64,000 nucleotides of DNA from Terriglobia bacterium (GTDB lineage: Bacteria > Acidobacteriota > Terriglobia > Terriglobales > Acidobacteriaceae): positions 1-64,000 of the forward strand of contig JAIQEU010000018.1 of the NCBI GenBank assembly GCA_020073665.1. The letters run 5' to 3'. The notes under the pieces were generated by a model that saw only the letters and a program-made list of their open reading frames with translations, was not told the DNA's origin and made no database searches. Positions 3,883-59,616 of the stretch are shown piece after piece. Numbering within the stretch: the first letter of the stretch is position 1; each line of letters begins with the position of its first letter. The position numbers and the translations under genes are program-made.

Positions 3883-3958
<76 letters not shown>

Positions 3959-15046: not shown

Positions 15047-15084
15047 TCCCTTCAGTTCGATACCACACCCTAAGTGCGCATCCG

Positions 15085-15519: not shown

Positions 15520-15520
15520 T

Positions 15521-44022: not shown

Positions 44023-44870
44023 GCCCCGAGCAGGAAATCCTCAATTTGGCGGGCGCAGAGTTGGCGGGCGCAGAGTTGGCGGGCGCAGAGTCCGAGAGCA
44101 AAACCCTGTTCGATGAACTGGCCGGACTGGTGCCCGTTGAACGGCAGGCGGAATACTATAGGGTCATCGCACACACTCGCACCCTTAGCCCAAACGACGA
44201 GATGCTCCGGATACTGGAAGCGATGGGCATCCTCGCGCTCCTCACCCGAGAAACGCCTGCGGAGATCGCCGCAGAGCGGAAGTCATTGCGGAAGATCTTG
44301 GAAGCTTCCGCTTCTCAGGCCAATGCGGTCGAGAAGCGAATGGAAGAATACACATCGCTACTTGAATCACGCATTACCCACTTGCCGAAGGAATTGGAAA
44401 CAGGGTTGGACCCGCCTCGAATTGCGAAGTTGCTGGGCGAGAGTATTCGACAGTGTTTCCAGCAGTCCGGTCTGCCGGATAGCGCCAGAGCGCTTGACCA
44501 ATCTTGTTCTGAAATGAGTTCCGTCCAAAAGCAACTTATGAACGTGCTGCGAGAAGTAGCTCACCCCGACATCGGAGTGATCGCAAAGGTCCGAAGCGCT
44601 AATGACTCGCTCGTGCGGAGCATGACTGCAAGGGCACAACAAATCGACGTTTTACTTGATAGGCTGGAAAAGCAGGTCTGGGCAACGTGGCTGCCTGTCG
44701 TTGCCAGTGCCGCCCTCGCATTGGGCTTCTTCTTGGGTACTTGGTTTGCCAATAAACGGCAAGTGGCAGTGGCACCGGAGACACATGGGACCGCTCAATC
44801 ACAACAAGAGCTGTTGGCTCCAGAGGTATCTCCCCGGACTCTTCCGCAGCGGCGGTTAAAGCACCATTGA
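44019..44870 (+). CDS. Coiled-coil protein with C-terminal transmembrane helix
   Basis: 283 aa, start coupled to the ATPase stop (ATGA). Near the N-terminus is a threefold LAGAE pentapeptide repeat. Residues about 85-225 are helical with coiled-coil character. One TM helix (WLPVVASAALALGFFLGTWF) near 228-247 is followed by a polar tail. It resembles in layout the TraM-type or other mobilisation-associated membrane proteins that follow TraL-like ATPases, but I see no specific motif. Confidence 0.55.
   Translation: MSPEQEILNLAGAELAGAELAGAESESKTLFDELAGLVPVERQAEYYRVIAHTRTLSPNDEMLRILEAMGILALLTRETPAEIAAERKSLRKILEASASQANAVEKRMEEYTSLLESRITHLPKELETGLDPPRIAKLLGESIRQCFQQSGLPDSARALDQSCSEMSSVQKQLMNVLREVAHPDIGVIAKVRSANDSLVRSMTARAQQIDVLLDRLEKQVWATWLPVVASAALALGFFLGTWFANKRQVAVAPETHGTAQSQQELLAPEVSPRTLPQRRLKHH
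44046..44090 (+). repeat. Three perfect 15-bp tandem repeats inside the gene
   Basis: TTGGCGGGCGCAGAG occurs three times in a row, coding LAGAE each time. It is in frame, so copy-number change would not break the protein. Confidence 0.9.
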
Positions 44871-44958: not shown

Positions 44959-45765
44959 ATGAAACCTGAGCCAGATTCGTTGCCTGCCTCTCGCGCGCGG
45001 CTCGCTGCGGTACTTCGCTCCACAAAGGAAGTCGTATCGGTTGACATTACGACCAAGACCCTCGGAATTGATCGGCGCGCCGCCGCCAAACTTCTGTCCC
45101 GATGGAGAGAGCAAGGCTGGCTTCGAAGGATAGGCCGCGGGCTCTATGTTTCCGTACCTTTGGATCTGGCAGCCAGCGAGCAGGTAATTGGAGATCCATG
45201 GGTGCTCGTCCCAACGCTCTTTGGCCAATGCTACATCGGCGGTTGGACGGCCGCTCACCATTGGGAACTCACTGAGCAGCTCTTTAATGAAACCTTCGTC
45301 TTTACCACGCGCCGTGTCATTGAGAAACGAGTAACTGCCCAAGGCGCTACCTTCCTGCTGCGCAGCGTGAAAACCAAACGCCTCTTCGGATTGAAAACAC
45401 TGTGGCGTGGTTCTGTCAAGGTCGCGATATCGGATTCCGCGCGCACGTTGGTCGATATGATCGCCGCGCCGGATGTTGGAGGCGGCATCGATCACGTAGC
45501 CGATTGCGTAAGTACATATCTCGGCAGCAAGACTGCCGATCGCGATCTGTTGATCCGCTATGCAACGCAGTTCGGCAATGGCGCCATCTTTAAGCGGCTC
45601 GGGTTTCTTGCAGACACTCGCCTGCGCGACAAGAAACTCGCGGCTGAGTGCCGCTCCCGTCTCACGCAGGGTTATGCCAGACTCGACCCGGCGCTCTCCT
45701 CCCGGAAACTCGTCACCGCTTGGCGGCTCTGGGTACCAGCGGCCTGGAAAGAAACAGCCTCATGA
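44959..45765 (+). CDS. AbiEi-type antitoxin / transcriptional regulator
   Basis: 268 aa. The N-terminal winged-HTH-like region (ITTKTLGIDRRAAAKLLSRW followed by GWLRRIGRGLYV) is typical of AbiEi proteins. The AbiEi C-terminal domain follows: YIGGWTAAHHWELTEQ, FVFTTRR and DSARTLVDMIAAPDVGGGID. In known type IV systems this protein represses the operon and counteracts the AbiEii toxin without forming a stable complex. The stop overlaps the toxin start (ATGA). The promoter lies just upstream. Confidence 0.85.
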   Translation: MKPEPDSLPASRARLAAVLRSTKEVVSVDITTKTLGIDRRAAAKLLSRWREQGWLRRIGRGLYVSVPLDLAASEQVIGDPWVLVPTLFGQCYIGGWTAAHHWELTEQLFNETFVFTTRRVIEKRVTAQGATFLLRSVKTKRLFGLKTLWRGSVKVAISDSARTLVDMIAAPDVGGGIDHVADCVSTYLGSKTADRDLLIRYATQFGNGAIFKRLGFLADTRLRDKKLAAECRSRLTQGYARLDPALSSRKLVTAWRLWVPAAWKETAS

Positions 45766-47156
45766 TCGACAAACGCGAAATTCTCGAATCCGCGTCGTCG
45801 TTTTCTCTGTTGCCCAGCATTGTGGAGAAGGACTACGTCCTAGGCTGGATACTCGCCGGTATCAACGCGCACGAAGAGCTCTCGGAAAGCTGGGTCTTTA
45901 AGGGAGGCACCTGTCTCAAGAAGTGTTATTTCGAGACATACCGGTTTTCAGAGGATCTGGATTTCACGCTGCGGGATGAAGGTCACATTGACGACGAGTT
46001 CCTGCGTCCGGTATTCGAAGAAGTTATCCGTTGGGTATCGGAACAATCGGGACTGAACATCCCCGTCGATCAGCTCGAATTCGATATCTACGAAAACCCG
46101 CGTGGCCGTCCCAACTGTCAGGGAAAGATTGCTTATCGAGGCCCAGTCTCCCCGACTTCGGGCGGCTGGCCGAAAATCAAGCTCGATCTAACGGCGGATG
46201 AGAGGCTGGTGCTTCCCTCTGTCCGTCGCGAGGTATTTCATCCCTACAGCGACCGTCCCGAAGGAGGGATTTGGGCCAATTGCTACGCCTACGAGGAAGC
46301 CTTCGGGGAAAAGTTGCGGGCGCTCGGAGAACGGACGCGCCCCCGCGATCTTTACGACGTGGTGAACCTCTATAGGCACACGGACAGTCGTCCAAGTGCG
46401 TCGGTACTTCGCGACGTGCTCCAGCAGAAGTGCGCATACAAAGCGATTCCTGTGCCCACGTTCGAGCTCCTGGCATCCCATCGCCTGTCTCTTGAGGCGA
46501 TGTGGTCGGATATGCTAGCGCACCAGCTTCCCGTTCTTCCCCCGCTGAATGACTTCTGGGACGCGCTCCCCGAAATCTTCACTTGGATCATGCGTGGCAC
46601 GGACGTCCCGCAGCGCGCACTCATTCAGCACGGCGCCAGCGAAACCGCTGTCCGCACGCGCGTGCTGCCGATGGGCATTCCCTTCCGCTCCCGTTCGACT
46701 CTGGAAATCATCCGCTTCGCTGCGGCGAACCATCTGTGCGTTGATCTGAGCTATGACGGCAGCGTGCGCCGCATAGAGCCGTATTCTCTGCGCCAGACGG
46801 CCGACGGATACTTCGTACTGCACGCCATCCGCAGCGATTCGGGCGAGCATCGCTCTTACCGTGTGGACCGGATGCAGGATGCAACCGTCACGTCGCAAGT
46901 CTTCATGCCGCGCTACGCGGTTGAACTGACTTCGACGGGGCCTCTCGCCGTTGCTCCTACAGCAATGCCTCGAATACCAAGCATCCGTCGAGCGGCGAGA
47001 GCCGCACGGCAGGGCCCGACTTACGTCTACCGATGTACCGTCTGCCGAAAGACATTTACCAGAAAGGCTATGGACGGCTCGCTCAACCCTCACAAAAACC
47101 CTCGTGGCTATCCATGCCCTGGACGGTACGGCGTGTACGTTCGCACCAAGTATTAG
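45762..47156 (+). CDS. AbiEii-family nucleotidyltransferase toxin fused to WYL domain and C-terminal Cys/His cluster
   Basis: 464 aa from ATG 45762, coupled to abiEi. The N-terminal 290 residues are the AbiEii/AbiGii nucleotidyltransferase: VEKDYVLGWILAGI, FKGGTCLKKCYFETYRFSED near 45-64 (the GG...SxDLDF active-site pattern), IKLDLTADE and EEAFGEKLRALGERTRPRDLYDVV. Residues about 305-388 read as a WYL domain (RIEPYSLRQTADGYFVLHAI, SYRVDRMQDATV). The end has CTVCRKTF with a following His and Cys, a zinc-ribbon-like tail. Classical AbiEii ends after the first part, so this is a fusion with a probable ligand-sensing module. Some relatives (MenT) act on tRNA 3' ends with NTPs; that activity here is inference. 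Confidence 0.85.
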   Translation: MIDKREILESASSFSLLPSIVEKDYVLGWILAGINAHEELSESWVFKGGTCLKKCYFETYRFSEDLDFTLRDEGHIDDEFLRPVFEEVIRWVSEQSGLNIPVDQLEFDIYENPRGRPNCQGKIAYRGPVSPTSGGWPKIKLDLTADERLVLPSVRREVFHPYSDRPEGGIWANCYAYEEAFGEKLRALGERTRPRDLYDVVNLYRHTDSRPSASVLRDVLQQKCAYKAIPVPTFELLASHRLSLEAMWSDMLAHQLPVLPPLNDFWDALPEIFTWIMRGTDVPQRALIQHGASETAVRTRVLPMGIPFRSRSTLEIIRFAAANHLCVDLSYDGSVRRIEPYSLRQTADGYFVLHAIRSDSGEHRSYRVDRMQDATVTSQVFMPRYAVELTSTGPLAVAPTAMPRIPSIRRAARAARQGPTYVYRCTVCRKTFTRKAMDGSLNPHKNPRGYPCPGRYGVYVRTKY

Positions 47157-47559: not shown

Positions 47560-47637
47560 AGGCCCGTGGCGGAACTGGCATACGCAGCTGCCTCAAGAGC
47601 AGCCTTTTTGTGGGTTCAACTCCCACCGGGCCTACCA
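47560..47637 (+). tRNA. tRNA-Leu (CAA), short variable arm
   Basis: Acceptor AGGCCCG/CGGGCCT, A73 and encoded CCA. The D-arm GCGGAACTGGCATACGC is leucine-like. The anticodon arm is GCTGC-CTCAAGA-GCAGC, giving CAA. The variable region is only six nucleotides (CTTTTT), whereas bacterial tRNA-Leu normally carries a long arm. Confidence 0.85.
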
Positions 47638-47665
47638 GAATTCTGTTGTTCTTTGACAATTCAAC

Positions 47666-47753
47666 GGAGAGTGGGCCGGACGGTAAGGCACTTGTCTGCT
47701 AAACAAGGGCTCTCGCAAGAGGCTAACGGGTTCAACTCCCGTACTCTCCGCCA
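47666..47753 (+). tRNA. tRNA-Ser (GCT)
   Basis: Acceptor GGAGAGT/ACTCTCC, G73, CCA. The anticodon arm is CTTGT-CTGCTAA-ACAAG. It has a normal long variable arm (GGCTCTCGCAAGAGGCT). Confidence 0.95.
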
Positions 47754-47757
47754 ATGC

Positions 47758-47846
47758 GGAAGGTACTGCTGAATGGCCGGCAACTGGTCCTGAAAACCGG
47801 GGCATCGTGATGAGCGATGGGCGTTCGATTCGTCTACCTTCCGCCA
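47758..47846 (+). tRNA. tRNA-Ser (TGA)
   Basis: Acceptor GGAAGGT/ACCTTCC, G73, CCA. The anticodon arm is CTGGT-CCTGAAA-ACCGG. A long variable arm is present. Only four bases separate it from the preceding tRNA. Confidence 0.9.
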
Positions 47847-47851
47847 AGTTT

Positions 47852-47942
47852 GCACAGGTGCGTAAGCCCGGCCGAAACGGACCGACTGTAACCCGGTTTC
47901 CCCGAGTGGGACGCGGAGGTTCAAATCCTCCCCTGTGCACCA
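47852..47942 (+). tRNA. tRNA-Tyr (GTA)
   Basis: Acceptor GCACAGG/CCTGTGC, A73, CCA. The anticodon loop is CTGTAAC with a weak last stem pair (A-C). The long variable arm is as expected for bacterial tRNA-Tyr. Confidence 0.9.
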
Positions 47943-47946
47943 CAGT

Positions 47947-48023
47947 GCCAGCGTGTGCGAATTGGAATAGCAGCCTGTCTTAGAAACAGGTGTTTGAGAG
48001 TTCGAATCTCTCCGCTGGCACCA
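47947..48023 (+). tRNA. tRNA-Leu (TAG), short variable arm
   Basis: Acceptor GCCAGCG/CGCTGGC, A73, CCA. The anticodon arm is CCTGT-CTTAGAA-ACAGG. The variable loop is five nucleotides (TGTTT), again not the class II arm expected for leucine. Confidence 0.85.
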
Positions 48024-48068
48024 GATTTCTTGATCCGCTGTGCATGGTCGGAAATCGGCAGTCCGCCG

Positions 48069-51000
48069 CTACTGGCCAACGGCCTTCGCCGAGTTGTTCG
48101 CACTACCTCGCAACATTGTCAGATGTTGTTGCGCTATGACATAAGAGGTACCGGGATAGTCCGTCTTAGGCTTCTCCACGCGGGAGTACATTTTCTCGGC
48201 CGCATCGAGAACGCCATATTGCTCCGCGATCAGAGCAAACCCGAACCACACCTCCGAGTTTGCCTCCTCCAGGTGCAGCGTATCCATGGCTTTCAGCAAT
48301 AGATCGCGTGCCTGACTGGTCTTCCCCGCCTGGGCATCGACACAAGCGAGGGTATGGAGAATAGCGAAATTGGCGTTCTTGCTCAGGTCGTTGGCACGCT
48401 GCGCCACATCAATCGCGCTCTGCTCGATCGGACCGGGGAGAAGCAACGCATACCATGCATACAGATTCAGGTCGGTCTCCGTGGCCTGTCCCTTGTCCAT
48501 GATTCCCTTAATAATGTCCCTTGACCTGCCGAACTGCCCTCGATAAGCAGCCAGCCTCGCGGATGAACGTACATAGGCCAACTCATCGGGATACTCTTGT
48601 ATCCGAGTTTGAACGAGTCTATCCCAATCGTCAAACCGCTTCAGTCCCGCAAACGCCGTCGTAGCAAGTTCGAAAGCACGCACCGAAGTGGGTGCGGCCT
48701 TTAGCAATTCTGCTGTCAGCGGCAGCATGTCGGCCCATTTCTCCTGGGCTGCATAAGCATATGCCATTACCATCGTCAGTCGGTTGCGATCGAGATCTGT
48801 CTTCGCTGCCTTCCGCGCTTGATCCAGCGCGGTGAAATACGGGCCGTTGACCGCTTTGGATCGGAGCAGCACGAGGCTTGCGGTGCGCATGGTTGGGACA
48901 TCAGCGTCTTGTCCTTTGGTCCAGAAGTAAGGAAAAGGCTGACCAGAGAGAGGATCGTCGCCACCGCTCACATGTATCTTGTCTCGTGCCCGATCCAGCC
49001 ATTTCCTTGCAGCAGACGGGTTGTTGTTCTCGATGGCTTGAAGCGCGAGCGGAGCCAGTTCTTCGATGTTCGAGCCGGACTCGGCAAAAGCAGCTGCTTT
49101 GTAACGCCCTCCATCCTTCACGACATACACGTCCTGGGCAGCCGCTCCGGGGCTCTCGATGATGATCTTGTACCCGAGCGAGTCATCGCCGTCCACCGTG
49201 TAATGCATGTTGGACACTGCTAGATCAGCGATGGTGACGAGCGGAAGTCCCGTAGCTGCCATCTGCGACTTGAGTCCTGCCATCATCTCGTGGAATTGCT
49301 TTTCGTCCTGCGTCGCGTCTGAGTCCTTCGGGTCGATGTAGATCATTGACTTGAACTCTTCAAGGGTCAGCTGGCCACTTAACATCAGGCCAAATAACTG
49401 CTGCACCACGCCGCGCGGGTCGGCTGGATCGATGGCTGTTGCGTCATACGGTTTAGTTGTGGCGAAGATGGCTGCACTTCGCGTGATTTGACTCTCGTTG
49501 CTTTGTCCCCGCGCTCCTTCGGTTATTAACACAGCAGCTTCCGGATATTTTCTGACTCGAACCAGGACCGCTCCAGCATTAGCCAATACTTTGCTGCGGC
49601 TTTGGTCGTCTGTTGTGATCTCCAGCGACCTCTTCAGCGCTGCATCTGAGCCTTGCTGGATGGAAATCGCCGCCAACATGAGGCCCTTTCGAACATCGCT
49701 GGCGGGCAGAGTTGCCGCGTAGTCGACGACACCTTTGTAGTCGTGCGCGTACCAGAGATCGTAGAGAATATTGTCGTCGTAGGTGCGACTGTATTCTTCG
49801 TCAAGCTTCTTCAATTCACGCAAGACTTCCACCGCTTCCTTTAGCCGCGCTTTCTCGCCGTACCGGGTTCCGTCTGCGTCGTACTCAAGCAAAAGTGCGA
49901 GGTTTGCGCGCGTCTCTTTATCCTTCGGATCGAGCGCGATGGCCTTTCGGTATGCGGCGATCGCCCCGTCATAGTCCATCCCCTTTTTCAGAAGGCGGCC
50001 GATCAGATCATGTTTCAAAACCATCCCGAGAGTGCTTTGTGCCAATGCCGAGTTGGGTTCAAGCGCAGTACTCTCCGAGGCCACGCGACGAGCTTGCTCC
50101 CCCAGTCCGGCCGTGATCAGCGCCTGAGCAAGTTGCACCTTGTGCAATGCCTCCTTGGGGCGCTGGGCTGCGACCTCACGATAAGCCGCCAGCCCCTCTT
50201 TGATCTTGCCGGCGGAAATGAGCGAGTGTCCGACATTGTCGAATGTGACGAAGATGGGATCGACAGCGCGCGCTTTCAGCACCGCCTCGCGCAGATCCTT
50301 GGCTTGCTGCACTGTCATTCTGGTGTTTGTATTCTCGACTCGGAGGAACGCTTCCACAATGGTGCCCTCGGAGTTGGTCGAGTACTTTTGAGTGAAGCTC
50401 AGAGTGTCTACCTTCTCGTCCTTATCTGAAGGAAGCGCCCGCAGTTTGAAACCGAGTGGCGCTGTTACCTTGTAGTGCCATTCGGTGGTGAAAGGTGTTA
50501 TCAACCAATCGGTCGTCCGTGGTTTTGGCTTCTCCGAGTCCTCCCCTTCAGTCGTCTCCTCGTTCTCTTTGGTTCTAAAGTACTTAGGAAGACGGTCGAA
50601 GAGAGACTCAACGCGGATGGCCACGAGGGCCGTGGTCAGGTCGGTATTCCCGCGCTTCCCCTTGCTGACGAACCGGATTGACGCTGGTTTCTCCAAGTCA
50701 GATAAATCGTCGTGCTCCAAGGAGGTAAGCGAATCAGCCAAATACATGTCTTTTACATAGCTTTCGCTGGCCTCCCTGACTTGCTTGCTATCGCCACTGT
50801 AGTATTCGCGATAGTCAGCTTCATCCGGGCCAATCTCCTCATCGGTTTCCACAAATGTTGCCAATCCGTAATCGGCGAGCGTGACCTCTCGCGATTCCCG
50901 GTGCACATTACCTGCTGATGTAATGTCAGGAGTCTTCCTCAGCGCTTCGGTCTTCTCATCAACGATGAGGGCCCAACGCCCGTAGTCCATCCATGGCAGC

Positions 51001-52222
51001 ATCCCCAGTTGAGAGTATTGGGCGGTAGCGTCAACCCAAAGATCCGAATCGGCACCAGACGCTGGAACATATACGATGGCGTGGTCAAACATCCCCATAC
51101 CAGGTAGATGAGTATTAAGCTCTCGTCCTGGCCCAGTATTGAGAAGAGCTAGACTCGCAGGAATTCCTGCGCTCCGAAGCATTGTGACCAGCAGCGTGGC
51201 CTTGTCTTTGCAATCGCCGTACCCGCGCTTCAGAGTCTCGGATGGAAACTGCGGGATTAAACTAGACTCCCCAAACTCTATCCCTGTGTAACGAACGTTT
51301 TTGTGCAAGGTGCCGACAATGCCGTGAATCAGGTCGCTGCGAGTTCCATTCTTCGCCTTGATCTTAGAAATCAGTGTCTGAACGTCCTCCGACCGTAGTT
51401 TGTCATTCGATAGACGCGCATACTCGGAAGCAACGTGATGCCATGAGGTGCCGGTCGAAAACTCGATTTCCGGGTACAAAACGAGATCGGCTGGAACGTG
51501 GTTTATCTCCTCCGTGTAGGCAGGCAATGGCCCTTGCTGAACAGTAATTGTCTCCAGGCCGACGTCCGTTGACTTCCCAACGGTTGCCTCTGGCAGCAAG
51601 TGCACTTCGTACTGGATGGGAAGTGAGACAGGATGTATGAGAACGACACGAGTCTTGTTTACAGGAACATTCCAACCAAATATCCACCTGCGAACTGTTC
51701 CCGCAGCAAAAAGGGGAGCCGTATCGCGGACCGACACTTCCTCCTCGACAATTGAGCCAGGAGCAACTGCTGGTAACGGTCCGCCATACTTTCGCTCATC
51801 GCTGTAAACATCTGGTGCATCCTCGTGCACGGGGAAGTCATTCAGAGTCTTTGGATCGAGCCAGTGGACAGCGCCGTCGGCCGTGATGACGCGAGCCTTA
51901 ATCTCCGGTTTGTCCTGATGCCACGCCTCCCATCGGCCACTGGTCTCAGCCCAGTCTTTTACACCATCTTGATTTTCGATCCGGTAGATCAAGTGGCGGG
52001 TCTCTAGCATCTTGCCGTTTTCGTCGAACTTGAAATGCAGCTCGTTCAACAGTACGGTGGCTTCACTATTTTTCCTGCCTGGACTGCCTGAGCTGCCTGC
52101 CGCAGAATTGCCGCATCCGTCGTGAAAGCTGGGCTGTCCCAAGCATCTGTAGCGCTCAATCGGGTGCCGATTGAAAGAACAACAACGATCAAGAATGTCT
52201 GAAGACGCAGCAGCGAATGCAC
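48069..52222 (-). pseudogene. DUF3857/transglutaminase-like protein with TPRs; signal peptide in another frame
   Basis: The long frame (to 52142) encodes a DUF3857 domain (VLLNELHFKFDENGKMLETR), then a transglutaminase-like domain with GYGDCKDKATLL, FDHAIVYVP and LWVDAT (the Cys, His and Asp of the family). About 700 residues of TPR-like helices follow. Its own N-terminus is implausible. A GTG at 52222, preceded by GAGG, opens a neighbouring frame giving a good signal peptide, HSLLRLQTFLIVVVLSIGTR, followed by DAAILRQAAQAVQAGK. That frame would join the main one if the A run (T run at 52069-52073) had one more base. So the gene is either disrupted, mis-assembled by one base, or slips there. 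The intact family is periplasmic. Confidence 0.75.
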
Positions 52223-52335
52223 GTTTGGAACCTCGGTGGCCAGAGTAGAACCTATTCTTCTACGCTAATATCGCAATGAAAGAAAGAGAAAATGCCCTAG
52301 GGCTCATTGGCCGCTAGCCATTTGCGGCGCGTAAA

Positions 52336-54891
52336 CTACAGTCTCGGATCTACGGGTTCGCTCTCCAGCGCAAGCACTCCGAAGACACACTCATGAACTC
52401 GGCGCAGTGGTTCTTGGTGAACAAACCGCTCCAACGCTTCCAACCCCAAAGCAAACTCCCGAAGCGCGAGCGAACGCTTTGCGCCCAGACCTCTGCTCTT
52501 TAGCCGCAGCAAGTTCTCGGGAAGCGTGTATTCCGGGCCATAGATAATCCGCAAGTATTCTCGTCCACGGACCTTCACGGCAGGTTGCACCAATCCTTTC
52601 CGACCCTTAGCCACAAACTCCAACGGCTTAACAACCATGCCTTCACCGCCACTTGCCGTCAGCTCCTCCCACCATTTGATTCCTTTCTCCTGGTCGGCTC
52701 TGTCGGTAAGATCCACGACTTGAAATGGTGTTGCGAGTAGTAGACCAATGTCGGCCTGACACATTCGGGCAAGAATCCCCATGTGCCACAGGTGATCTTT
52801 CGCGGAGTGAACGGCACCCTCGCTGGCAAGCAGGTGGAAAGGCGCCAGTTTCAGGTCGGCTAGAGAACGCACCGTCCAGCAGTATCGTCGGTAAGCCTCG
52901 ACATAGAGATCTGCGGCTTCCTTGCGCTGTTGGTATTGTTCTGCAAGCGCTGAAATTTCATGATTTTCCGCGCTCGCTCTCAACGCACCAATCGCCACCG
53001 GCAAAGCCGCTCGGGCCGCCGCCCCGGTTGGAGCATATTGCTGGCGCAGCAACTCTTGCGCCTTGGCTGACCATGGCATCAATTCGCAGTCCAGGCAGAC
53101 CCAGTCAGTTTTGAGCTCTTCCCAAATGCCCGCTACGTCTACGGCTTTTCGGACTTTTTCCAGAAACTCCGACTCTCGTGGCGGGTCATTGAAGAACCGC
53201 CGCCCCGTCCGCGTGTAGCAGACTCCGGCCTCGCCTTCCATAATTCCAAACCGTTTGCGCGCAGCATCGGCGTCACGACAGACAACGACTACCGCTCGCG
53301 ATCCCATGTGCTTCTGTTGGCAGACCACCTTGTGCACGCCCTCGTGCAGGTAGTAGGCAAAGGCTTCTTCAGGATGTTCGAGCAGTCCGTTACGTTTACT
53401 GGTCTCACATGGGGACATCGTGGGCGGCAGGTAGATGAGCCACTTTGGATTTACCGCAAATCGGCTCATCACCTCCAGGGCTGTGATCGCATTCTCTTCT
53501 CGAATCGTGATGTTACGGTGCAACCGCGTGTTAATGATCCGCTTGCCGATGACATCCTCGATGTCGAGCAGGTCATCCAATTGCTGTTGTGCAGTCAGCG
53601 CTGGCGCCAATTCCTCCTGGGACAAGAACGGCTTGGCCGACTCGTAATAGGTTCGGAGAGCAGAAACCGACATCAATTCACGTTCGGGATAACGGAGGGC
53701 AGTCAATTTTCCGCCGAACACGCACCCGGTATCTATGTTGATCGTGCGGTTCAGCCATTCTGGCTCGGCAACCGGCGTATGCCCATAAACCACCATCGCC
53801 TTGCCACGATACTCAGCCGCCCAGTTGTAGCGCACTGGGAGTCCGTATTCGTCCGTCTCCCCGGTGGTCTCTCCATAGAGCGCAAAATCGCGCACTTTGC
53901 CAGAGCCGCGTCCCTGCATCTCCTCTCTCATGCCGGCGTGTGCCACGACGAGCTTCCCTTCGTCGAACACATAGTGGCTGACCAGATCGTCGAGAAACTT
54001 GATGACCGTCTGCTTGAATTCAGGAGTCTCCTTATCGAGCTGTTCAACTGAGTCGGCCAATCCATGCGTCAACTGCACATCGCGTCCCTTCAGTTTCCGC
54101 ATCAGCTTCATGTCATGATTTCCAGGAACGCAGAACGCCGTGCCGTCTTCAACCATTTCCATGACCAGGCGCAGCACCGCTGAAATCTTGGGCCCGCGGT
54201 CAACTAGATCACCAACGAAAATCGCTCTGCGTCCATCGGGTGGAGTAACAGTTGTTGCTGTCGGTTCTTCGTTGATCTGGTAACCAAGCTGAACGAGCAA
54301 AGCGGACAACTCTTCGTAGCAACCGTGTACGTCCCCGATGATGTCGAACGGCCCATGCTCGTGTTTCAGATTATTCCAAAGCGGCTGTCGCACGATCGTG
54401 ACCGAGGAGACCTCCTCTGGACTCGACAGCACGAAGACATGACGGAAGCCTTCGCGTTCCAGTCCCCGAAGCGAGCGCCGCAGTTGTTGCGCCTGGTTTC
54501 GGATGACGTGAGGACCGAACTGACGGTCGGGCCGACTCTGATTACGTTCGTGGCAGACCTTCTCTGGCAGGTTCAAAACGATGGCCACCGGCAAAACATG
54601 AAACTCGCGAGCGAGTGCCACTAGCGGCTTGCGCGCCTCAGGCTGTACGTTGGTCGCGTCAACTACGGTCAGACGGCCAGCAGCAAGCCTCTTGCGAGCG
54701 ACGTAGTGCAGGACATCGAATGCATCATTCGTGGCCTCTTGGGAATTCTCGTCGTCTGACACAAGACCGCGGCAGAAGTCTGAAGAGAGAACCTCCGTGG
54801 ACTTGAAGTGCTCCCGAGCGAAACTCGACTTCCCGCAGCCCGAAGGACCGATGAGAACAACCAACGAAAGTTCAGGAATCGTTATGGTCAC
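52336..54891 (-). CDS. pnkp: Polynucleotide kinase-phosphatase-ligase of the bacterial RNA repair system
   Basis: 851 aa, close to the length of the well-studied clostridial Pnkp (about 870). Three domains are in order: a P-loop kinase (GPSGCGKSSFAREHF near residue 13); a binuclear metallophosphatase (GDVHGCYEE near 185, GDLVDRGP near 229, GNHD near 257, AHAGM and YGHTP); and a C-terminal nucleotidyltransferase/ligase domain with the adenylation-type motif QKHMGSR near 525. Known Pnkp heals both ends of cleaved RNA and seals after Hen1 activates it. The start overlaps the hen1 stop by 4 bp (ATGA). All three catalytic domains look intact. Confidence 0.95.
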   Translation of the reverse strand: MTITIPELSLVVLIGPSGCGKSSFAREHFKSTEVLSSDFCRGLVSDDENSQEATNDAFDVLHYVARKRLAAGRLTVVDATNVQPEARKPLVALAREFHVLPVAIVLNLPEKVCHERNQSRPDRQFGPHVIRNQAQQLRRSLRGLEREGFRHVFVLSSPEEVSSVTIVRQPLWNNLKHEHGPFDIIGDVHGCYEELSALLVQLGYQINEEPTATTVTPPDGRRAIFVGDLVDRGPKISAVLRLVMEMVEDGTAFCVPGNHDMKLMRKLKGRDVQLTHGLADSVEQLDKETPEFKQTVIKFLDDLVSHYVFDEGKLVVAHAGMREEMQGRGSGKVRDFALYGETTGETDEYGLPVRYNWAAEYRGKAMVVYGHTPVAEPEWLNRTINIDTGCVFGGKLTALRYPERELMSVSALRTYYESAKPFLSQEELAPALTAQQQLDDLLDIEDVIGKRIINTRLHRNITIREENAITALEVMSRFAVNPKWLIYLPPTMSPCETSKRNGLLEHPEEAFAYYLHEGVHKVVCQQKHMGSRAVVVVCRDADAARKRFGIMEGEAGVCYTRTGRRFFNDPPRESEFLEKVRKAVDVAGIWEELKTDWVCLDCELMPWSAKAQELLRQQYAPTGAAARAALPVAIGALRASAENHEISALAEQYQQRKEAADLYVEAYRRYCWTVRSLADLKLAPFHLLASEGAVHSAKDHLWHMGILARMCQADIGLLLATPFQVVDLTDRADQEKGIKWWEELTASGGEGMVVKPLEFVAKGRKGLVQPAVKVRGREYLRIIYGPEYTLPENLLRLKSRGLGAKRSLALREFALGLEALERFVHQEPLRRVHECVFGVLALESEPVDPRL

Positions 54892-56285
54892 GAGCTGAAT
54901 ACCCCCATCTGCGTGGGCGCGCCCACTTGGGGATCTTCTTCTCCGACCGGAAGAAACCTTACTGCGTACCCAAAGCGTTCAGAGATCCGGCGTGACCACA
55001 GCTGAAATTGCTTCCGAGTCCACTCAAAACGGTGATCTTTGTGGCGGAACTTTCCCGCGGGCAGAGTCTCGAACTTCACGTTGTACTCGCAGTTCGGAGT
55101 GGTCACGATGATCGTTTTCGGGCGCGCGGCTTCGAAAAGAACACGCTCGAATGCGGCCAGTCGCGGTGCGTCCAGATGCTCGATGACTTCCACGACCGTG
55201 GCGGCGTCGTAGCCACTCAGGCGCTTGTCCCGATACATTAGCGAACCATGGATCAGTTTCAACCGCTCCCTCTGCTTTGTGGGCATCCGGTCGACTTTCA
55301 AGCGCTGGCTCGCAATCTCAAGACTCCGATACGAGACATCCATACCCACGATCTCCGTTAGTGACTTCTCATCCAACAGGGTCCGCAGGAGTTTCCCTTC
55401 TCCACAGCCCAAGTCCAGGACGCGCTTCGCCTCGACGGATCGAAGCACAGCAACCACTGCTCCCATGCGCTGCTGCCAGAGCCGAATCGGCTCCTCCATT
55501 TTCGTTTCTTCCTCAGAGTGAGCTTCCTCTGCCGCGTCAGGATCGGGGTTGTCTTCCTCCGCGAGTCTGGCGAGTGCCTCTCGCGCCAGTTGCCGCTGCC
55601 GGGGCAGATATCGTTTTACGATCGCTTCTTTGTTAGGGTGCGATGCCAACCAGCCTTCCCCTTTTCGCAGGAGCTTCTCAACTTCGTCGTTCCCAATCCA
55701 GTAGTGCTTCTCCGCGTCGAGCACCGGGATCAGTACGTAAAGATGATTCAGCATGTCCTGCAAGCGGAATGTCCCCGCCAAGGTCACTGAGTAGTACGGT
55801 CCCTCACCCCACTCTGGAAATTTCTCGTCAAGCGGATGATGTTGGGCGGTTACGCTGTATCCCAGAGGCTCGAATAGCTCGCGGATCAAACCCTCACCGG
55901 CCCGGCAGGCTACCACCGTCAAGTTTGCGATCAACGGGATCGCCTGATCCGCCAGTTCTTGCCTCCCCTTGCTGCGGCCAGACATGGCTGTCCCGAAAGC
56001 GCGTCCCATAGCGACGCTAAGGAAAGAAGAGAGCACGTAGGGCCGGTCGTTCACATACTGATCAAGAGTTCCGCCCTCATGCTGACCCCGCTTGCCGCGA
56101 ACCAATCCCACTGGATCGACATCGAGCAGCAAGGCAGCCGTGCACCGTTCCGAGGTCGCTTCCGGGTAGAAAACATGTGCTTTCCCAAACGACAGCTCGA
56201 ACGAATGCAACTTCGCCGGGTTCTTATGAAGCAGGTAACCCAAGTCCGTCGCGGGGTTATGCGTAGTTGTGAGCGTCAAAAGCAT
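54888..56285 (-). CDS. hen1: RNA 3'-terminal 2'-O-methyltransferase Hen1
   Basis: 465 aa from ATG 56285; a longer frame continues upstream into the tRNA-Pro gene and is rejected. The N-terminal half is the bacterial Hen1 Pnkp-activating domain (LGYLLHKNPAKLHSFELSFG, FYPEATSERCTAALLLDVDP). The C-terminal half is the methyltransferase: DLGCGEGKLL near 290 and EVIEHLD near 368 (metal-binding Glu/His). In known systems Hen1 methylates the 2'-OH at the cleaved RNA 3' end before Pnkp ligation, making the repaired tRNA resistant to renewed cleavage. A perfect TATAAT lies seven bases before the ATG. Confidence 0.95.
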   Translation of the reverse strand: MLLTLTTTHNPATDLGYLLHKNPAKLHSFELSFGKAHVFYPEATSERCTAALLLDVDPVGLVRGKRGQHEGGTLDQYVNDRPYVLSSFLSVAMGRAFGTAMSGRSKGRQELADQAIPLIANLTVVACRAGEGLIRELFEPLGYSVTAQHHPLDEKFPEWGEGPYYSVTLAGTFRLQDMLNHLYVLIPVLDAEKHYWIGNDEVEKLLRKGEGWLASHPNKEAIVKRYLPRQRQLAREALARLAEEDNPDPDAAEEAHSEEETKMEEPIRLWQQRMGAVVAVLRSVEAKRVLDLGCGEGKLLRTLLDEKSLTEIVGMDVSYRSLEIASQRLKVDRMPTKQRERLKLIHGSLMYRDKRLSGYDAATVVEVIEHLDAPRLAAFERVLFEAARPKTIIVTTPNCEYNVKFETLPAGKFRHKDHRFEWTRKQFQLWSRRISERFGYAVRFLPVGEEDPQVGAPTQMGVFSS

Positions 56286-56291
56286 GGTCGA

Positions 56292-56297
56292 ATTATA
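56292..56297 (-). promoter_or_regulatory. TATAAT -10-like box just before hen1
   Basis: Six bases separate TATAAT from the ATG of hen1. If it is used, the transcript would begin at or next to the start codon (leaderless). I find no good -35 at 17 bp and there is no Shine-Dalgarno motif before this ATG. Confidence 0.4.
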
Positions 56298-56352
56298 CGA
56301 GTCCTTATTCTCTAGCTTTCGTGGACATGTATCGCCTCGAAAGCACAAAAAA

Positions 56353-56427
56353 TGGTCCGGGTGGCAGGAGTTGAACCTGCGTTGACATGTGCCCAAGACA
56401 TGTGGGTGGCCGCTACCCTACACCCGG
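56353..56427 (-). tRNA. tRNA-Pro (TGG)
   Basis: Acceptor CCGGGTG/CACCCGG, A73 and CCA. The anticodon arm is CATGT-CTTGGGC-ACATG. It lies between rtcB and hen1 in the same orientation, 33 bp after the rtcB stop. Confidence 0.95.
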
Positions 56428-56460
56428 ATTGTTAGAGAGGGCCTTGCAGCCCTCTCCTGT

Positions 56461-57690
56461 TTAGCCCTTCACGCAAACCACCTGGCGCAATGTGTGCACC
56501 ACATCCACCAAGTCACGCTGCGCTTCCATCACGGCGTCGATGGACTTGTACGCCATCGGAGTTTCGTCGATGACGTCCGCATCCTTACGACACTCGACGC
56601 CAGCCGTTGCCTTGGCGTGATCGTCCAGCGTGAAGCGGCGCTTCGCTTCCGTACGCGACATGGCGCGTCCGGCTCCATGACTACAACTCATGAAACTCTC
56701 CGGATTGCCCTTGCCGCGCACGATGTACGAGCGCGCTCCCATGCTGCCCGGGATGATTCCCATGTCGCCCTGTCGCGCACGAACTGCGCCCTTACGCGTG
56801 ATGAGCACGTTCTCGCCGTAGTGGTGCTCCCAAGTCACATAATTGTGATGGCAGCTCACGACTTCCACATTGGCTTCGAACGCCGGGACTTCTCCCGACG
56901 CCTGCACCGCCGCGATCAGGTTGCGCATCATTAGCTCGCGGTTGGCCAGCGCGTAGTCCTGTGCCCAATGCACTGCGCGGACGTAGTCCTCGAAGTGCTC
57001 CGTGCCCTGCGGCAGGTACGCGAGGTCCTGGTCCGGCAGGTTGATCATCCACTGACGCATGTCGTTCTTCGCTAGCTCGATGAAAAACGTGCCGAAGCGA
57101 TTGCCCACGCCGCGGGATCCTGAGTGCAGTAGGAACCAGACGTTCTTGTTTTCATCGAGGCAGACCTCGATGAAGTGGTTCCCAGTGCCAAGCGTTCCCA
57201 GGTGATTCACGCGCTGCTTGTGATCCAGCTTGGGATACTTCTCGACGATTGCCTTGTAAGCCGGCTCCATCTTCGCCCACACCTCCGCGTGATGCGACGG
57301 GGCATCCGACCACGCGCCGCGGTCGTTCGCTCGTCCGTTGTCGGTGCGTCCGTGCGGCACCGCCTTCTCAATCGCCGTACGGACGCCGTGCAGATTTTCC
57401 GGCAGATGATTGGCGTGCAAAGAAGTCTGCACCGCCATCATGCCGCAGCCAATATCCACACCTACCGCCGCCGGAATGATTGCGCCGCGAGTCGGAATGA
57501 CGCTGCCCACGGTCGCGCCGATGCCCCAATGCACGTCCGGCATGGCCGCCACCCACTTGTAGATGAACGGCAACTGTGCCACGTTCAAGAGCTGCTGACG
57601 CGCGGCGTCCTCGAGCTGGACACCCTTAGTCCAGGCCTTAATGGGCACGCCCTTGTCCGGCATCATCACGTTGTAGGTTGCGTCTGTCAT
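56461..57690 (-). CDS. rtcB: RNA-splicing/repair ligase RtcB
   Basis: 409 aa from ATG 57690, preceded by GGAAAG; upstream in-frame Met codons overlap tRNA DNA and are rejected. Conserved RtcB motifs are present: metal-binding GVDIGCGMM near residue 80, GTGNHFIEV near 167, HSGSRGVGN, SCHHNYVTWE and the guanylylated His in SCSHGAGR near 337. RtcB joins 2',3'-cyclic phosphate or 3'-phosphate ends to 5'-OH RNA ends using GTP and Mn. Here it sits directly behind 14 tRNA genes and ahead of tRNA-Pro, hen1 and pnkp. No archease or RtcR regulator is seen. Confidence 0.95.
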   Translation of the reverse strand: MTDATYNVMMPDKGVPIKAWTKGVQLEDAARQQLLNVAQLPFIYKWVAAMPDVHWGIGATVGSVIPTRGAIIPAAVGVDIGCGMMAVQTSLHANHLPENLHGVRTAIEKAVPHGRTDNGRANDRGAWSDAPSHHAEVWAKMEPAYKAIVEKYPKLDHKQRVNHLGTLGTGNHFIEVCLDENKNVWFLLHSGSRGVGNRFGTFFIELAKNDMRQWMINLPDQDLAYLPQGTEHFEDYVRAVHWAQDYALANRELMMRNLIAAVQASGEVPAFEANVEVVSCHHNYVTWEHHYGENVLITRKGAVRARQGDMGIIPGSMGARSYIVRGKGNPESFMSCSHGAGRAMSRTEAKRRFTLDDHAKATAGVECRKDADVIDETPMAYKSIDAVMEAQRDLVDVVHTLRQVVCVKG

Positions 57691-57730
57691 TGTCTTTCCT
57701 TTCTTGCAGCCAACATTTGCGTCACGAATC

Positions 57731-57804
57731 TGGTGGCTCGGCACGGAATTGAACCGTATCCACTGGCTTTTCAGACCAGCACTCTGCCGTCGAGTTCCCG
57801 AGCC
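57731..57804 (-). tRNA. tRNA-Phe (GAA)
   Basis: Acceptor GGCTCGG/CCGAGCC, A73, CCA. Anticodon loop CTGAAAA. Last tRNA of the array, 40 bp before the rtcB start. Confidence 0.95.
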
Positions 57805-57809
57805 AAACT

Positions 57810-57883
57810 TGGTGGACGGTGCGAGAATTGAACTCGCATTTCACGGTTGCAGGCCGTGAGTAATCCCGTTATACGAACCGCCC
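57810..57883 (-). tRNA. tRNA-Ala (TGC), C33 variant
   Basis: Acceptor GGGCGGT/ACCGTCC contains the G3-U70 pair and A73 that define alanine identity. The anticodon arm CACGG-CCTGCAA-CCGTG gives TGC with C instead of the near-universal U at position 33. Reading GCA (Cys) would require a broken stem and does not fit the acceptor. Confidence 0.75.
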
Positions 57884-57886
57884 ATT

Positions 57887-57962
57887 TGGGGCGAGATGAG
57901 AGAATCGAACTCTCGTGACTGGAGCCACAATCCAGTGCCTAAGCCATTCGGCCAATCCCGCC
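57887..57962 (-). tRNA. tRNA-His (GTG)
   Basis: G-1 opposite C73, the histidine identity feature. Acceptor GCGGGAT/ATCTCGC, anticodon loop TTGTGGC, encoded CCA. Confidence 0.95.
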
Positions 57963-57971
57963 ATCGAAATC

Positions 57972-58045
57972 TGGAGCTGGTCGAGTGAATCGAACACTCG
58001 TCGGAGAGGTACAAGCTCTCTGCACTCCCACTGTGCTAGACCAGC
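57972..58045 (-). tRNA. tRNA-Thr (TGT)
   Basis: Acceptor GCTGGTC/GACCAGC, T73, CCA. Anticodon arm GAGAG-CTTGTAC-CTCTC. Confidence 0.9.
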
Positions 58046-58052
58046 AAACTTG

Positions 58053-58127
58053 TGGAGCTGGCACGCAGCCTCGAACTGCGGTCGGGCGCTTACCATGCGC
58101 CTGCTCTTCCCGTTGAGCTATACCAGC
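58053..58127 (-). tRNA. tRNA-Thr (GGT)
   Basis: Acceptor GCTGGTA/TGCCAGC, T73, CCA. Anticodon arm GGCGC-ATGGTAA-GCGCC. Confidence 0.9.
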
Positions 58128-58129
58128 GG

Positions 58130-58201
58130 AGCTGGTGCGGCGATTCGAACGCCGATCACGGACTTACGAGGCCGGCACTCTTCCCACTGAGCTACACCAG
58201 C
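58130..58201 (-). tRNA. tRNA-Thr (CGT)
   Basis: Acceptor GCTGGTG/CACCAGC, T73. Loop CTCGTAA with one mismatch in the anticodon stem. CCA is not encoded: the next bases are CCG and the last is shared with the 5' end of the adjoining tRNA-Thr (GGT). Confidence 0.85.
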
Positions 58202-58223
58202 GCAAAACTTCTTTGCGACTATC

Positions 58224-58299
58224 TGGAGGCGGTGGGGAGAATTGCACTCCCGATGATCTCCTTTGCAGGGAGATGCCTTGCTGTCTTGGCTACACCGCC
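58224..58299 (-). tRNA. tRNA-Cys (GCA)
   Basis: Acceptor GGCGGTG/CACCGCC, T73 (cysteine-type), CCA. Anticodon arm TCTCC-CTGCAAA-GGAGA. The T-loop is TGCAATT instead of the usual TTCxAxT. Confidence 0.9.
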
Positions 58300-58309
58300 T
58301 CATGAAACC

Positions 58310-58385
58310 TGGAGCGGAAGGCGGGACTCGAACCCGCGCTCTCGACGTTGGCAACGTCGCGTCTTGGCCACTAGACGACTTCCGC
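58310..58385 (-). tRNA. tRNA-Gly (GCC)
   Basis: Acceptor GCGGAAG/CTTCCGC, T73, CCA. Anticodon arm CGACG-TTGCCAA-CGTCG. Confidence 0.95.
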
Positions 58386-58398
58386 CCTCACAAAATCT

Positions 58399-58473
58399 TG
58401 GAGCGAGCAGCGAGAGTCGAACTCGCGTCATCGGGTTGGAGGCCCGAGGCACCAGCCGCTATACCATGCTCGC
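58399..58473 (-). tRNA. tRNA-Gly (TCC), C33 variant
   Basis: Acceptor GCGAGCA/TGCTCGC, T73, CCA. Anticodon arm TCGGG-CCTCCAA-CCCGA, with C rather than U at position 33. Confidence 0.85.
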
Positions 58474-58483
58474 CCTTCACATC

Positions 58484-58560
58484 TGGCAGGGGTGACAGGA
58501 TTCGAACCTGCTTGAACTCGTTTTGGAGACGAGCGCCCTTCCCACCGGGTCATCACCCCT
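58484..58560 (-). tRNA. tRNA-Trp (CCA)
   Basis: Acceptor AGGGGTG/CACCCCT, G73, CCA. Anticodon arm CTCGT-CTCCAAA-ACGAG. Confidence 0.95.
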
Positions 58561-58561
58561 G

Positions 58562-58635
58562 TGGCGGTCGCAACGGGAGTTGAACCCGTCCCTCCTGATA
58601 GACAGTCAGGCATCCTGCCGCTAGACTCTACGACC
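58562..58635 (-). tRNA. tRNA-Asp (GTC)
   Basis: Acceptor GGTCGTA/TGCGACC, G73, CCA. Anticodon arm CCTGA-CTGTCTA-TCAGG. One base separates it from tRNA-Trp. Confidence 0.95.
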
Positions 58636-58647
58636 ACTTTTCAAACT

Positions 58648-58723
58648 TGGCTGCGAGGGCACGATTCGAACGTGCATGAACCGGGTCAGAGCCGGTTATC
58701 CTGGCCGATTGGATGACCTCGCA
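58648..58723 (-). tRNA. tRNA-Gln (CTG)
   Basis: Acceptor TGCGAGG/CCTCGCA, G73, CCA. Anticodon loop CTCTGAC. Confidence 0.95.
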
Positions 58724-58850
58724 ACTATGAGGAGGGAACCTGCGGATACGGTGTGTTTTCTGGACAAGAGAAGTAACCGTAGCCTTCACCACTCCCCGAA
58801 TTCTAACCATTGCTCCTTAATGAGCTTCCTCCTTTGCTGACCTTAGAAAC

Positions 58851-58924
58851 TGGCTGCCGGGGAGCGATTCGAACGCCCGTATCTGGATTCAAAATCCAGG
58901 GTCCTGCCACTAGACGACCCGGCA
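58851..58924 (-). tRNA. tRNA-Gln (TTG)
   Basis: Acceptor TGCCGGG/CCCGGCA, G73, CCA. Anticodon arm CTGGA-TTTTGAA-TCCAG. The 127-bp gap before the next tRNA (58724-58850) holds no recognisable gene. Confidence 0.95.
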
Positions 58925-59116
58925 TCACACTTTCAGCGACACTGCTTTCATGCACCGCACACACAACACCGCCGACTCATCGATGTTGTGGCCAAGTCTC
59001 CTGCGATCCATGCGCGCACGATCCACCAACTCGCGATGATCTCCGCCGCGGTCGCAGAAGAGTTCCGATGCCAGCTCGATCTCAAGCCCTTCGAGTTCAA
59101 TCGTTTGTGTACTCAT
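58925..59116 (-). CDS. Small ORF inside the tRNA array
   Basis: 63 aa (MSTQTIELEGLEIELASELF ... VLCVRCMKAVSLKV). Its ATG lies 5 bp past the 3' end of tRNA-Glu, and its stop codon touches the first base of tRNA-Gln (TTG). It is acidic, with one CxxC pair near the end. No ribosome site is evident and no family is recognised. It could be a genuine small protein carried with the array. Confidence 0.45.
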   Translation of the reverse strand: MSTQTIELEGLEIELASELFCDRGGDHRELVDRARMDRRRLGHNIDESAVLCVRCMKAVSLKV

Positions 59117-59120
59117 AAGT

Positions 59121-59195
59121 TGGTAGCAGCGAGGAGAGTCGAACTCCCATCTCAGCCTTGAAAGAGCCGTATCCTGGCCGTTAGACGACGCTGCC
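59121..59195 (-). tRNA. tRNA-Glu (TTC), first gene of the array
   Basis: Acceptor GGCAGCG/CGCTGCT with a G-U first pair, A73 (G is usual for Glu), CCA. The anticodon arm CGGCT-CTTTCAA-GGCTG has two wobble pairs. Its sequence is unlike the tRNA-Glu 3' half at 42720, so it is not the attachment-site parent. Confidence 0.9.
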
Positions 59196-59237
59196 TCCTC
59201 TCTGCGCATCGGTACAAATGCGCCGTAAAAAGCAAAA

Positions 59238-59259
59238 GCCCCCGATTTGTATCGGAGGC
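59238..59259 (-). terminator. Terminator/attenuator hairpin ahead of the tRNA array
   Basis: On the minus strand GCCTCCGAT pairs with ATCGGGGGC around ACAA, followed by TTTTGCTTTTT. It lies 42 nt upstream of the first tRNA, an unusual place for a terminator unless it attenuates array transcription or ends a leader. Confidence 0.55.
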
Positions 59260-59395
59260 CCAGAAAAACTACGCGCTATGGATCGCCCCCGTTACATGAA
59301 CGTACCTTCCCCCGCCCATTGCCACGTAAACGTGGCCGGTGTCGGGAAGCAATCGGTATGGGGTTTGCGCATCATTGCGTGTATCTCAGTTTCTA

Positions 59396-59423
59396 CTTTT
59401 ACATCATTCTACAAATTCGTCAA
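59396..59423 (-). promoter_or_regulatory. Possible promoter of the tRNA array
   Basis: Minus strand TTGACG (59418-59423) and TAAAAG (59396-59401) with a 16-bp spacer. The -35 is good and the -10 is weak. Confidence 0.35.
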
Positions 59424-59616
59424 TACCCAAAAGTGGTGGGCTTACTTCCGAGTCGCCAACCATCCTTAATCCAGTTCGACCACAACGGTCGCGTCCTCAG
59501 GCGCCCGGCCTAATGCTGTGAAACGATCCAGTCTGACTTGTACAAGTTACCACCGATGTGTGAAATCATAAATCCCATCGCTAATTCTGCTACCATGCGG
59601 CCATTCGGAGAACCAC

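Follow-up and report, generated by a model that had tools for sequence, protein, structure and literature searches.

A tRNA array enclosing the RNA-repair genes rtcB, hen1 and pnkp on a putative mobile element of Terriglobia

Background

Immune effectors and toxins block translation by cutting or capping transfer RNAs (tRNAs), and phages respond with spare tRNAs and repair (PMC7824862, PMC10264068; here and below, statements on published work refer to the parts of each paper that were available). Jumbo phages are a precedent for the rescue of translation by such replacement or repair (PMC7824862). Here we describe a locus of a Terriglobia bacterium (assembly GCA_020073665.1, contig JAIQEU010000018.1, hereafter C13) in which a large tRNA array encloses the RNA-repair genes rtcB, hen1 and pnkp. 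The window, i.e. the whole stretch of 64,000 nucleotides that was analysed, corresponds to bases 1-64000 of this contig (76,348 bases), which belongs to a draft genome of 5.42 Mb in 62 contigs.

Several described systems share features with this locus. The trn operon of Anabaena sp. PCC 7120 comprises 26 tRNAs on the delta plasmid and, like the present array, is a large accessory tRNA set on mobile DNA beside a native one (PMC10272220). Replacement and repair are co-regulated there, since rtcB and trn are under one repressor. However, in Anabaena rtcB lies apart on the chromosome as a member of the regulon, whereas here rtcB, hen1 and pnkp lie physically inside the array. The jumbo phage XacN1 likewise carries tRNAs for all 20 amino acids together with Hen1-like and Pnkp-like genes in one mobile genome (PMC5852040). 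It differs in being a phage, in having its repair genes about 54 kilobases (kb) from the nearer tRNA copies, and in its Leu tRNAs, which have long variable arms; its match to Hen1 is partial (39% of the query, 29% identity). The array units known from mycobacteria, from plasmids and from mycobacteriophages are also dense mobile tRNA sets, called putative antidefense, which in M. avium cover 19-20 amino acids and which often include HNH genes (PMC5966550, PMC12803027). In the lineage described here HNH genes occur only in some relatives, and the words ligase and RtcB are absent from the main texts of both of these papers. Known Hen1-Pnkp systems have the same domains, the same gene pair and the same Pnkp-binding N-terminal domain of Hen1, but mostly lack tRNA genes in the loci examined. 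Finally, allo-tRNA(UAU), the commonest allo-tRNA of soil and sediment metagenomes, is unusable in E. coli and its role is described as unexplained; the same source mentions polycistrons of allo-tRNA-like and other irregular tRNAs, and lists Acidobacteria among allo-tRNA hosts (PMC7609411). One tRNA of the present array shares its tRNA-Sec-like long arm and UAU anticodon, but is found at a fixed place in a repair-linked array. Three things are already known, namely the enzymes themselves, the occurrence of tRNA arrays on mobile DNA and the notion that the two could be paired; for an array fused with hen1-pnkp, no description was found in the open-licence literature searched (titles, abstract starts, and "tRNA array" with Hen1 or Pnkp).

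Content and layout of the array

The array and the genes inside it are arranged as follows (window positions unless the contig is given).
47560-48023, plus strand: five tRNAs, Leu(CAA), Ser(GCT), Ser(TGA), Tyr(GTA) and Leu(TAG) (ARAGORN)
52336-54891, minus strand: pnkp, polynucleotide kinase-phosphatase-ligase, 851 residues (Pfam)
54888-56285, minus strand: hen1, RNA 3'-end 2'-O-methyltransferase with Pnkp-binding N-terminal domain, 465 residues (Pfam)
56353-56427, minus strand: tRNA-Pro(TGG), between rtcB and hen1 (ARAGORN, Rfam)
56461-57690, minus strand: rtcB, RNA ligase, 409 residues (RtcB PF01139, 438 bits)
57731-58924, minus strand: 13 tRNAs, Gln(TTG), Gln(CTG), Asp, Trp, Gly(TCC), Gly(GCC), Cys, Thr(CGT), Thr(GGT), Thr(TGT), His, Ala(TGC) and Phe(GAA) (ARAGORN; Phe by Rfam)
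59121-59195, minus strand: tRNA-Glu(TTC), first gene of the main block (ARAGORN, Rfam)
C13:65724-66661: ten tRNAs, Arg (CCG, CCT, ACG, TCT), Lys (TTT, CTT), Ile (GAT), Val (TAC), Met (CAT) and Asn (GTT)

In total, the array holds 31 tRNA genes with 31 anticodons and covers all 20 amino acids. The initial annotation, made on the window, had described 20 tRNA genes with 20 different anticodons packed around a full RNA-repair set on the minus strand, and this description is borne out. ARAGORN recovered 19 of the 20 tRNAs at the positions given there (its 20th match in the window is a separate tRNA-Asn at 3884, outside the array), and the remaining one, tRNA-Phe(GAA) at 57731-57804, was missed by ARAGORN and matched by Rfam RF00005 with 53.9 bits. 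From tRNA-Glu to pnkp, a single minus-strand run of 6.9 kb (59195 to 52336) with gaps of at most 196 bases comprises 15 tRNAs, rtcB, hen1 and pnkp. Within it, 14 tRNA genes fall in 1,465 bases, so that chance clustering is no issue. The contig continues past the window edge with the ten further tRNAs found by ARAGORN, and a tRNA-Sec-like gene lying between Met and Val (66401-66489), which ARAGORN missed in C13, completes the set.

The array is interrupted twice, by a plus-strand macroglobulin gene that separates the Glu and Arg blocks, and by a DUF3857/TPR gene that separates pnkp from the five plus-strand tRNAs. A tRNA array unit is defined by at least 20 tRNA genes at a density of at least two per kb. 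The present array reaches 1.6 per kb overall (31 genes in 19.1 kb) and 9.6 per kb in the main block, and the relative in genome G737 has 27 tRNA genes in 6.9 kb. On paper, from the anticodons and the usual wobble rules, the array would decode every sense codon except UUA. Two gaps between tRNA genes behave differently among relatives: that at 58925-59120, which separates Gln(TTG) from Glu, has a conserved sequence in both L086 and G594 and could encode a peptide of 63 residues, in contrast to that at 58724-58850, which is mostly missing from L086.

All three repair genes are full length. RtcB has a complete domain (positions 1-426 of the 426 of PF01139) and matches the solved structures 2epg and 1uc2; a second rtcB, 84.6% identical to that of the array, lies on contig C42. 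Hen1 combines Hen1_L (PF12623, residues 1-242, 386 bits) with a methyltransferase domain (PF08242), and matches 4dqz over residues 1-229 and 3jwh over 258-463. Pnkp displays the domain order AAA_33, Metallophos and PNKP_ligase (PF16542, 618 bits), corresponding to the structures 4gp6 (1-170), 4j6o (171-419) and 4drf (441-851). The start of pnkp overlaps the stop of hen1 by 4 bases.

An accessory set beside the host tRNAs

An Rfam search of the draft genome gave 76 tRNA matches, 28 in the array and 48 elsewhere. The latter number is a lower bound, as 150 of 168 candidates were scored and even Ser(TGA) and Cys of the array were overlooked. ARAGORN found 42 anticodons among the tRNAs outside the array, and for 28 of the 30 ordinary anticodons of the array a further copy exists elsewhere in the genome. 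The initial annotation had stated that it would be contradicted if its tRNAs were the only copies in the genome, forming an ordinary housekeeping cluster. Such a role is rejected because at least 48 tRNA genes with 42 anticodons lie outside the array, a conclusion that holds for 28 of the 30 anticodons; moreover, among the matches listed for the 395 other genomes sampled from the phylum, no DNA match reaches array length, similarity outside the own genome extending over at most about 140 bases (396 genomes searched). Ala-TGC and Ile-GAT, found only in the array of this draft, are what speaks for a housekeeping cluster, to which we give next to no probability. Their host copies may be absent from the draft or overlooked by the search. 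No 16S gene was found in the draft, by a search that also missed 5 of 14 control genomes, so an unassembled ribosomal RNA operon may hold both.

The array tRNAs are set apart from their host counterparts, with 59-78% identity to host isoacceptors (27 compared) against 95-100% to the L086 copy of the array (24 of 24) and at least 92% to the L087 copy (14 of 16). In 106 array-to-array tRNA comparisons, restricted to tRNAs of the same length that are at least 80% identical, 107 base pairs were changed, of which 89 are still paired. Double changes kept pairing in 38 cases and broke it in one, single changes kept it in 51 and broke it in 17, these counts coming from related sequences that are not independent. 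The genes missed by ARAGORN in C13 (Phe and the allo-tRNA) are left out of both the identity and the pair-change comparisons.

Relatives of the array

Among the matches listed, the closest Hen1 relatives of the window genome come from Acidobacteriota of the class Terriglobia. Seven acidobacterial copies of the array lineage were compared, some of them ending at contig ends. An array lies beside hen1-pnkp in four acidobacterial genomes other than that of the window (L086, L087, G594 and G735), and rtcB, hen1 and pnkp are all inside the unit in the window genome itself (G000), G594, L086 and L087. The initial annotation had proposed looking for this linkage in other genomes, and it does recur, by common descent in these four and with a different array in the planctomycete L102. 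The unit of G735 comprises hen1, two RlaP genes and pnkp, its rtcB being elsewhere in the genome. In G594 and G735 two tandem RlaP nucleotidyltransferase genes stand between hen1 and pnkp (L206:7605-9532, L228:4174-5921), making a four-gene RNA-repair cassette, and in G735 a gene of the AbiV type with a HEPN domain occupies the rtcB slot (L228:832-2604).

Ratios of nonsynonymous to synonymous substitution rates (dN/dS) against the window copies are low: 0.037-0.082 for rtcB in five comparisons, one of them with the displaced G735 gene, 0.042-0.057 for hen1 and 0.079-0.101 for pnkp in three comparisons each, and 0.109 for rtcB against its C42 paralogue; hen1 and pnkp of G735 gave no estimate. 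Judging from these values, the repair genes are under strong purifying selection while other cargo turns over.

How often hen1-pnkp adjoins an array was assessed with a Hen1 scan of the genomes of 84,980 species, from which the best 80 of 593 matches were kept with flanks of up to 10 kb on each side, many contigs being shorter. An array is within reach in three of these 80 loci, namely L086, L087 and L102. In the planctomycete L102, 31 tRNAs detected by ARAGORN start about 120 bases after pnkp, and of the 69 tRNA matches in its genome, 33 fall within the array and 36 elsewhere. The tRNAs of the L102, G491, G728 and XacN1 arrays are no closer to this array than to the other tRNAs of the window genome (Wilcoxon p 0.36-0.73). 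Common ancestry of these arrays with the present one is therefore unsupported tRNA by tRNA, a result compatible with a distant common origin. One unrelated recurrence, that of L102, is suggestive and not proof. Two of the four phages found with Hen1 were examined, XacN1 having 60 tRNA matches and the other none. In another acidobacterial genome, L067, a tRNA-Pro-like gene with ambiguous anticodon (L067:867-944) and a gene resembling slipin by eye (L067, about 1213-2330) precede hen1-pnkp.

Unusual tRNAs

The 31st gene (66401-66489) has a UAU anticodon and a tRNA-Sec-like arm, and its counterpart in a relative was called Ile(TAT). It scores 30.2 bits against the tRNA-Sec model RF01852, under the cut-off of 47. 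Its predicted structure has an acceptor helix of 7 base pairs (bp) and a T stem of 5 bp with one unpaired base between, compared with the 12-bp acceptor branch (8/4 or 9/3) expected of allo-tRNA(UAU). The anticodon loop CTTATAC is carried by a 5-bp stem, kept with compensating changes in all eight aligned copies, from which the gene of G737, broken in its 3' half, was excluded. Seven of the eight have the anticodon UAU and the one of G728 has GAU. The anticodon and T stems together have 10 pairs, all of them kept throughout, 6 with changes on both sides.

A model of this allo-tRNA matched 9 of 399 genomes of the class. In the arrays of G000, G594, G627 and G735, the last with two copies, strong matches adjoin tRNA-Met; G737 has a broken one there, and distant relatives occur in two other array families, those of G491 (UAU) and G728 (GAU). 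The G598 match is a tRNA-Sec and that of G257 a Ser tRNA, neither being an allo-tRNA relative. G735 had three matches and G737 two, and the one left over in each genome is a Lys tRNA. The arrays described here look like the genomic home of allo-tRNA(UAU).

The Leu tRNAs of the array are also irregular. They have 77-78 bases and lack the long variable arm, as opposed to 85-91 bases for six Leu genes elsewhere in the genome. Leu genes are short as well (73-78) in the arrays of G594, L087, G737, G491 and L102, and measure 85 and 87 bases in XacN1.

Leaders and possible control

Both minus-strand blocks, starting with Asn and Glu, are preceded by a conserved leader with a hairpin and a T-rich run shortly before the first tRNA. 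That of the main block is the following.
59196-59440, minus strand: conserved leader with a TTGAC box near the far end, a strongly folded stretch and a terminator-like hairpin (alignment and folding; putative function)

Its hairpin with T-rich run lies at 59261-59236, just before tRNA-Glu. Leaders from five copies were aligned over about 185 (Asn) and 245 (Glu) bases, with a mean column identity of 82% and 86%; in both alignments the terminator hairpin of G737 is out of register, so that some of its apparently broken pairs are alignment faults. No T-box or other Rfam leader was found up to an E value of 5 in 59196-59400 and L033 6662-6800. Since the conserved leaders end in terminator-like hairpins, induction is likely, and we infer a form of attenuation in which transcription would halt before the tRNAs unless a signal permits read-through.

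The mobile element and its cargo

The following backbone genes, abortive-infection pair and possible element edge lie to the left of the array.
42515-42712, plus strand: tyrosine recombinase, C-terminal fragment, which may mark the left edge of the element (weak, below the Pfam cut-off)
43291-44022, plus strand: ParA-like ATPase, element backbone, also in G594
44019-44870, plus strand: backbone protein with no assigned family, also in G594
44959-45765, plus strand: AbiEi antitoxin
45762-47156, plus strand: AbiEii nucleotidyltransferase toxin with a WYL domain

On the right of the array, a TrwC relaxase is encoded at C13:68587-71385. Genome G594 is collinear with C13 for the ParA-like gene, the backbone protein, the tRNA blocks, pnkp, hen1, rtcB and TrwC (97% identical), with other cargo between them. 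With the relaxase and the ParA-like gene in the element and this collinear copy as evidence, the unit is best described as mobile DNA. The term "defence island", which the initial annotation had offered, is too loose, and a mobile element with a module of the resistance type fits the evidence better.

Within the scope of the searches made, an origin from a phage finds no support, though a phage remnant is conceivable. PHROGs assigned no structural or packaging family to the 10 element proteins compared with it, and only a few families of unknown function; a search of viral contigs based on the Hen1 alignment yielded 21 pattern matches, none of them confirmed as a relative; and the allo-tRNA has no exact 20-base match in viral contigs. 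The element has a relaxase and a ParA-like gene instead.

The cargo is variable, as no match to the macroglobulin, DUF3857 and AbiE genes was found in the fetched stretches of the compared copies. The very large gene of the alpha-2-macroglobulin type extends on C13 from before 60.0 to 65.68 kb (L033:1-5682) and has an inserted carboxypeptidase-regulatory domain. The DUF3857/transglutaminase/TPR protein (1357 residues, window 48069-52142) is encoded between pnkp and the five-tRNA block. The WYL domain of AbiEii is C-terminal, and the toxin belongs to the same family as the MenT toxins, which extend the 3' ends of tRNAs by added nucleotides (PMC10435456). TrwC-type relaxases also lie within 10 kb of hen1 in two Acidobacteriota, L115 (61% identical) and L074 (30%), where there is no array. 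Finally, positions 14000-15520 of the window contain three occurrences of a sequence at least 236 bases long (100%, 100% and 77%), the last two starts being 162 bases apart.

Proposed function and alternatives

We propose, with moderate confidence, that the locus is a mobile-element module that would rescue translation upon tRNA damage by both replacement and repair, and that is probably inducible judging from its leaders. The leaders would keep the array silent until stress lets transcription proceed, after which the divergent array tRNAs could substitute for host tRNAs cut or capped by ribotoxins or abortive-infection effectors. Pnkp-Hen1 would mend cut tRNAs by healing their ends, sealing them and marking the junction by 2'-O-methylation, and RtcB would join ends bearing a 2',3'-cyclic phosphate or 3'-phosphate to those with a 5'-OH; these activities are general for the families. 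Both partners may benefit, the element being able to enter and persist in cells that kill invaders via tRNA attack. As AbiEii is in the MenT family, the element may have needed protection from its own cargo. This cannot be the main reason for the module, however, since the corresponding stretch of G594 shows no match to AbiE. A more ambitious form of the proposal, which we hold to be unlikely, is a self-contained kit in which tRNAs remodelled to escape effectors, attenuators sensing tRNA damage or uncharged tRNA, and repair enzymes are united in one transcription unit. The remodelled members would then be the allo-tRNA(UAU) for AUA codons, the Leu tRNAs without long variable arm, and the tRNA bodies only 59-78% like those of the host.

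The same genes could also form a general translation-stress operon, a silent spare set switched on by ribosome-targeting antibiotics or starvation, with repair enzymes serving general RNA upkeep. The Anabaena trn operon behaves in this way, being plasmid-borne, silent and induced by translation inhibitors, and its repressor TrcR also controls rtcB and a slipin gene (PMC10272220). The conserved terminator leaders would fit such inducibility, but an element with a relaxase and abortive-infection genes fits conflict better, and we regard this explanation as doubtful. A supply of tRNAs for element genes whose codon use is unlike that of the host, as proposed for the XacN1 tRNAs (PMC5852040), is very improbable here: nearly every anticodon is present once instead of a codon-biased subset, host anticodons are duplicated in 28 of 30 cases, and a role in codon supply leaves the ligase and kinase genes unaccounted for.

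Alternatively, arrays may be recombination-prone landing sites and the repair genes mere passengers that share no function with them, just as the macroglobulin, HNH and AbiE genes would be. Array slots do hold different genes in different genomes, as with the missing hen1-pnkp of G737 and the AbiV-like gene of G735, and most examined Hen1 loci have no array. However, rtcB keeps its slot in five of the seven lineage copies (G000, G594, L086, L087 and G737), hen1-pnkp do so in five (G000, G594, L086, L087 and G735) with low dN/dS, and the planctomycete joins the same partners, although this single extra case is not statistically compelling alone. We consider a cargo hot spot quite improbable.

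Several observations weigh against a module for replacement and repair. The acidobacterial copies share one ancestor and so count as one event. Within this lineage G737 keeps the array and rtcB without hen1-pnkp, and G627 keeps six tRNAs with neither rtcB nor hen1-pnkp; the divergent arrays of G491 and G728 belong to genomes without Hen1. Conversely, 77 of the 80 best Hen1 loci have no array (0-2 tRNAs each), Hen1_L is present in 13 of 396 genomes of the phylum with at most one tRNA in each of the stretches fetched around Hen1 of the 12 others, and none of 10 Hen1 plasmids examined (of 22 found) has a tRNA above the cut-off. In the loci examined, Hen1-Pnkp without an array is thus the rule and the fused form the exception. 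The array lacks Leu(UAA) and an initiator-type tRNA-Met, and hence cannot fully replace the host set. As for its control, the leader folds are stable but covariation is limited to one pair each, too thin to prove structure, and pattern scans of the region were not above chance for promoters (2 sites against 2.5 expected) or terminators (5 against 8.0, the leader hairpin being among the 5).

Implications

The proposed rescue module would join replacement and repair against tRNA-targeting immunity in one bacterial mobile unit, and would make the function of large tRNA arrays testable at a single locus. It also gives allo-tRNA(UAU) a defined genetic setting and designates the leaders as candidate sensors of tRNA damage. 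If the self-contained kit were true, kits of this type would account for an orphan family, the allo-tRNA(UAU) of soil metagenomes.

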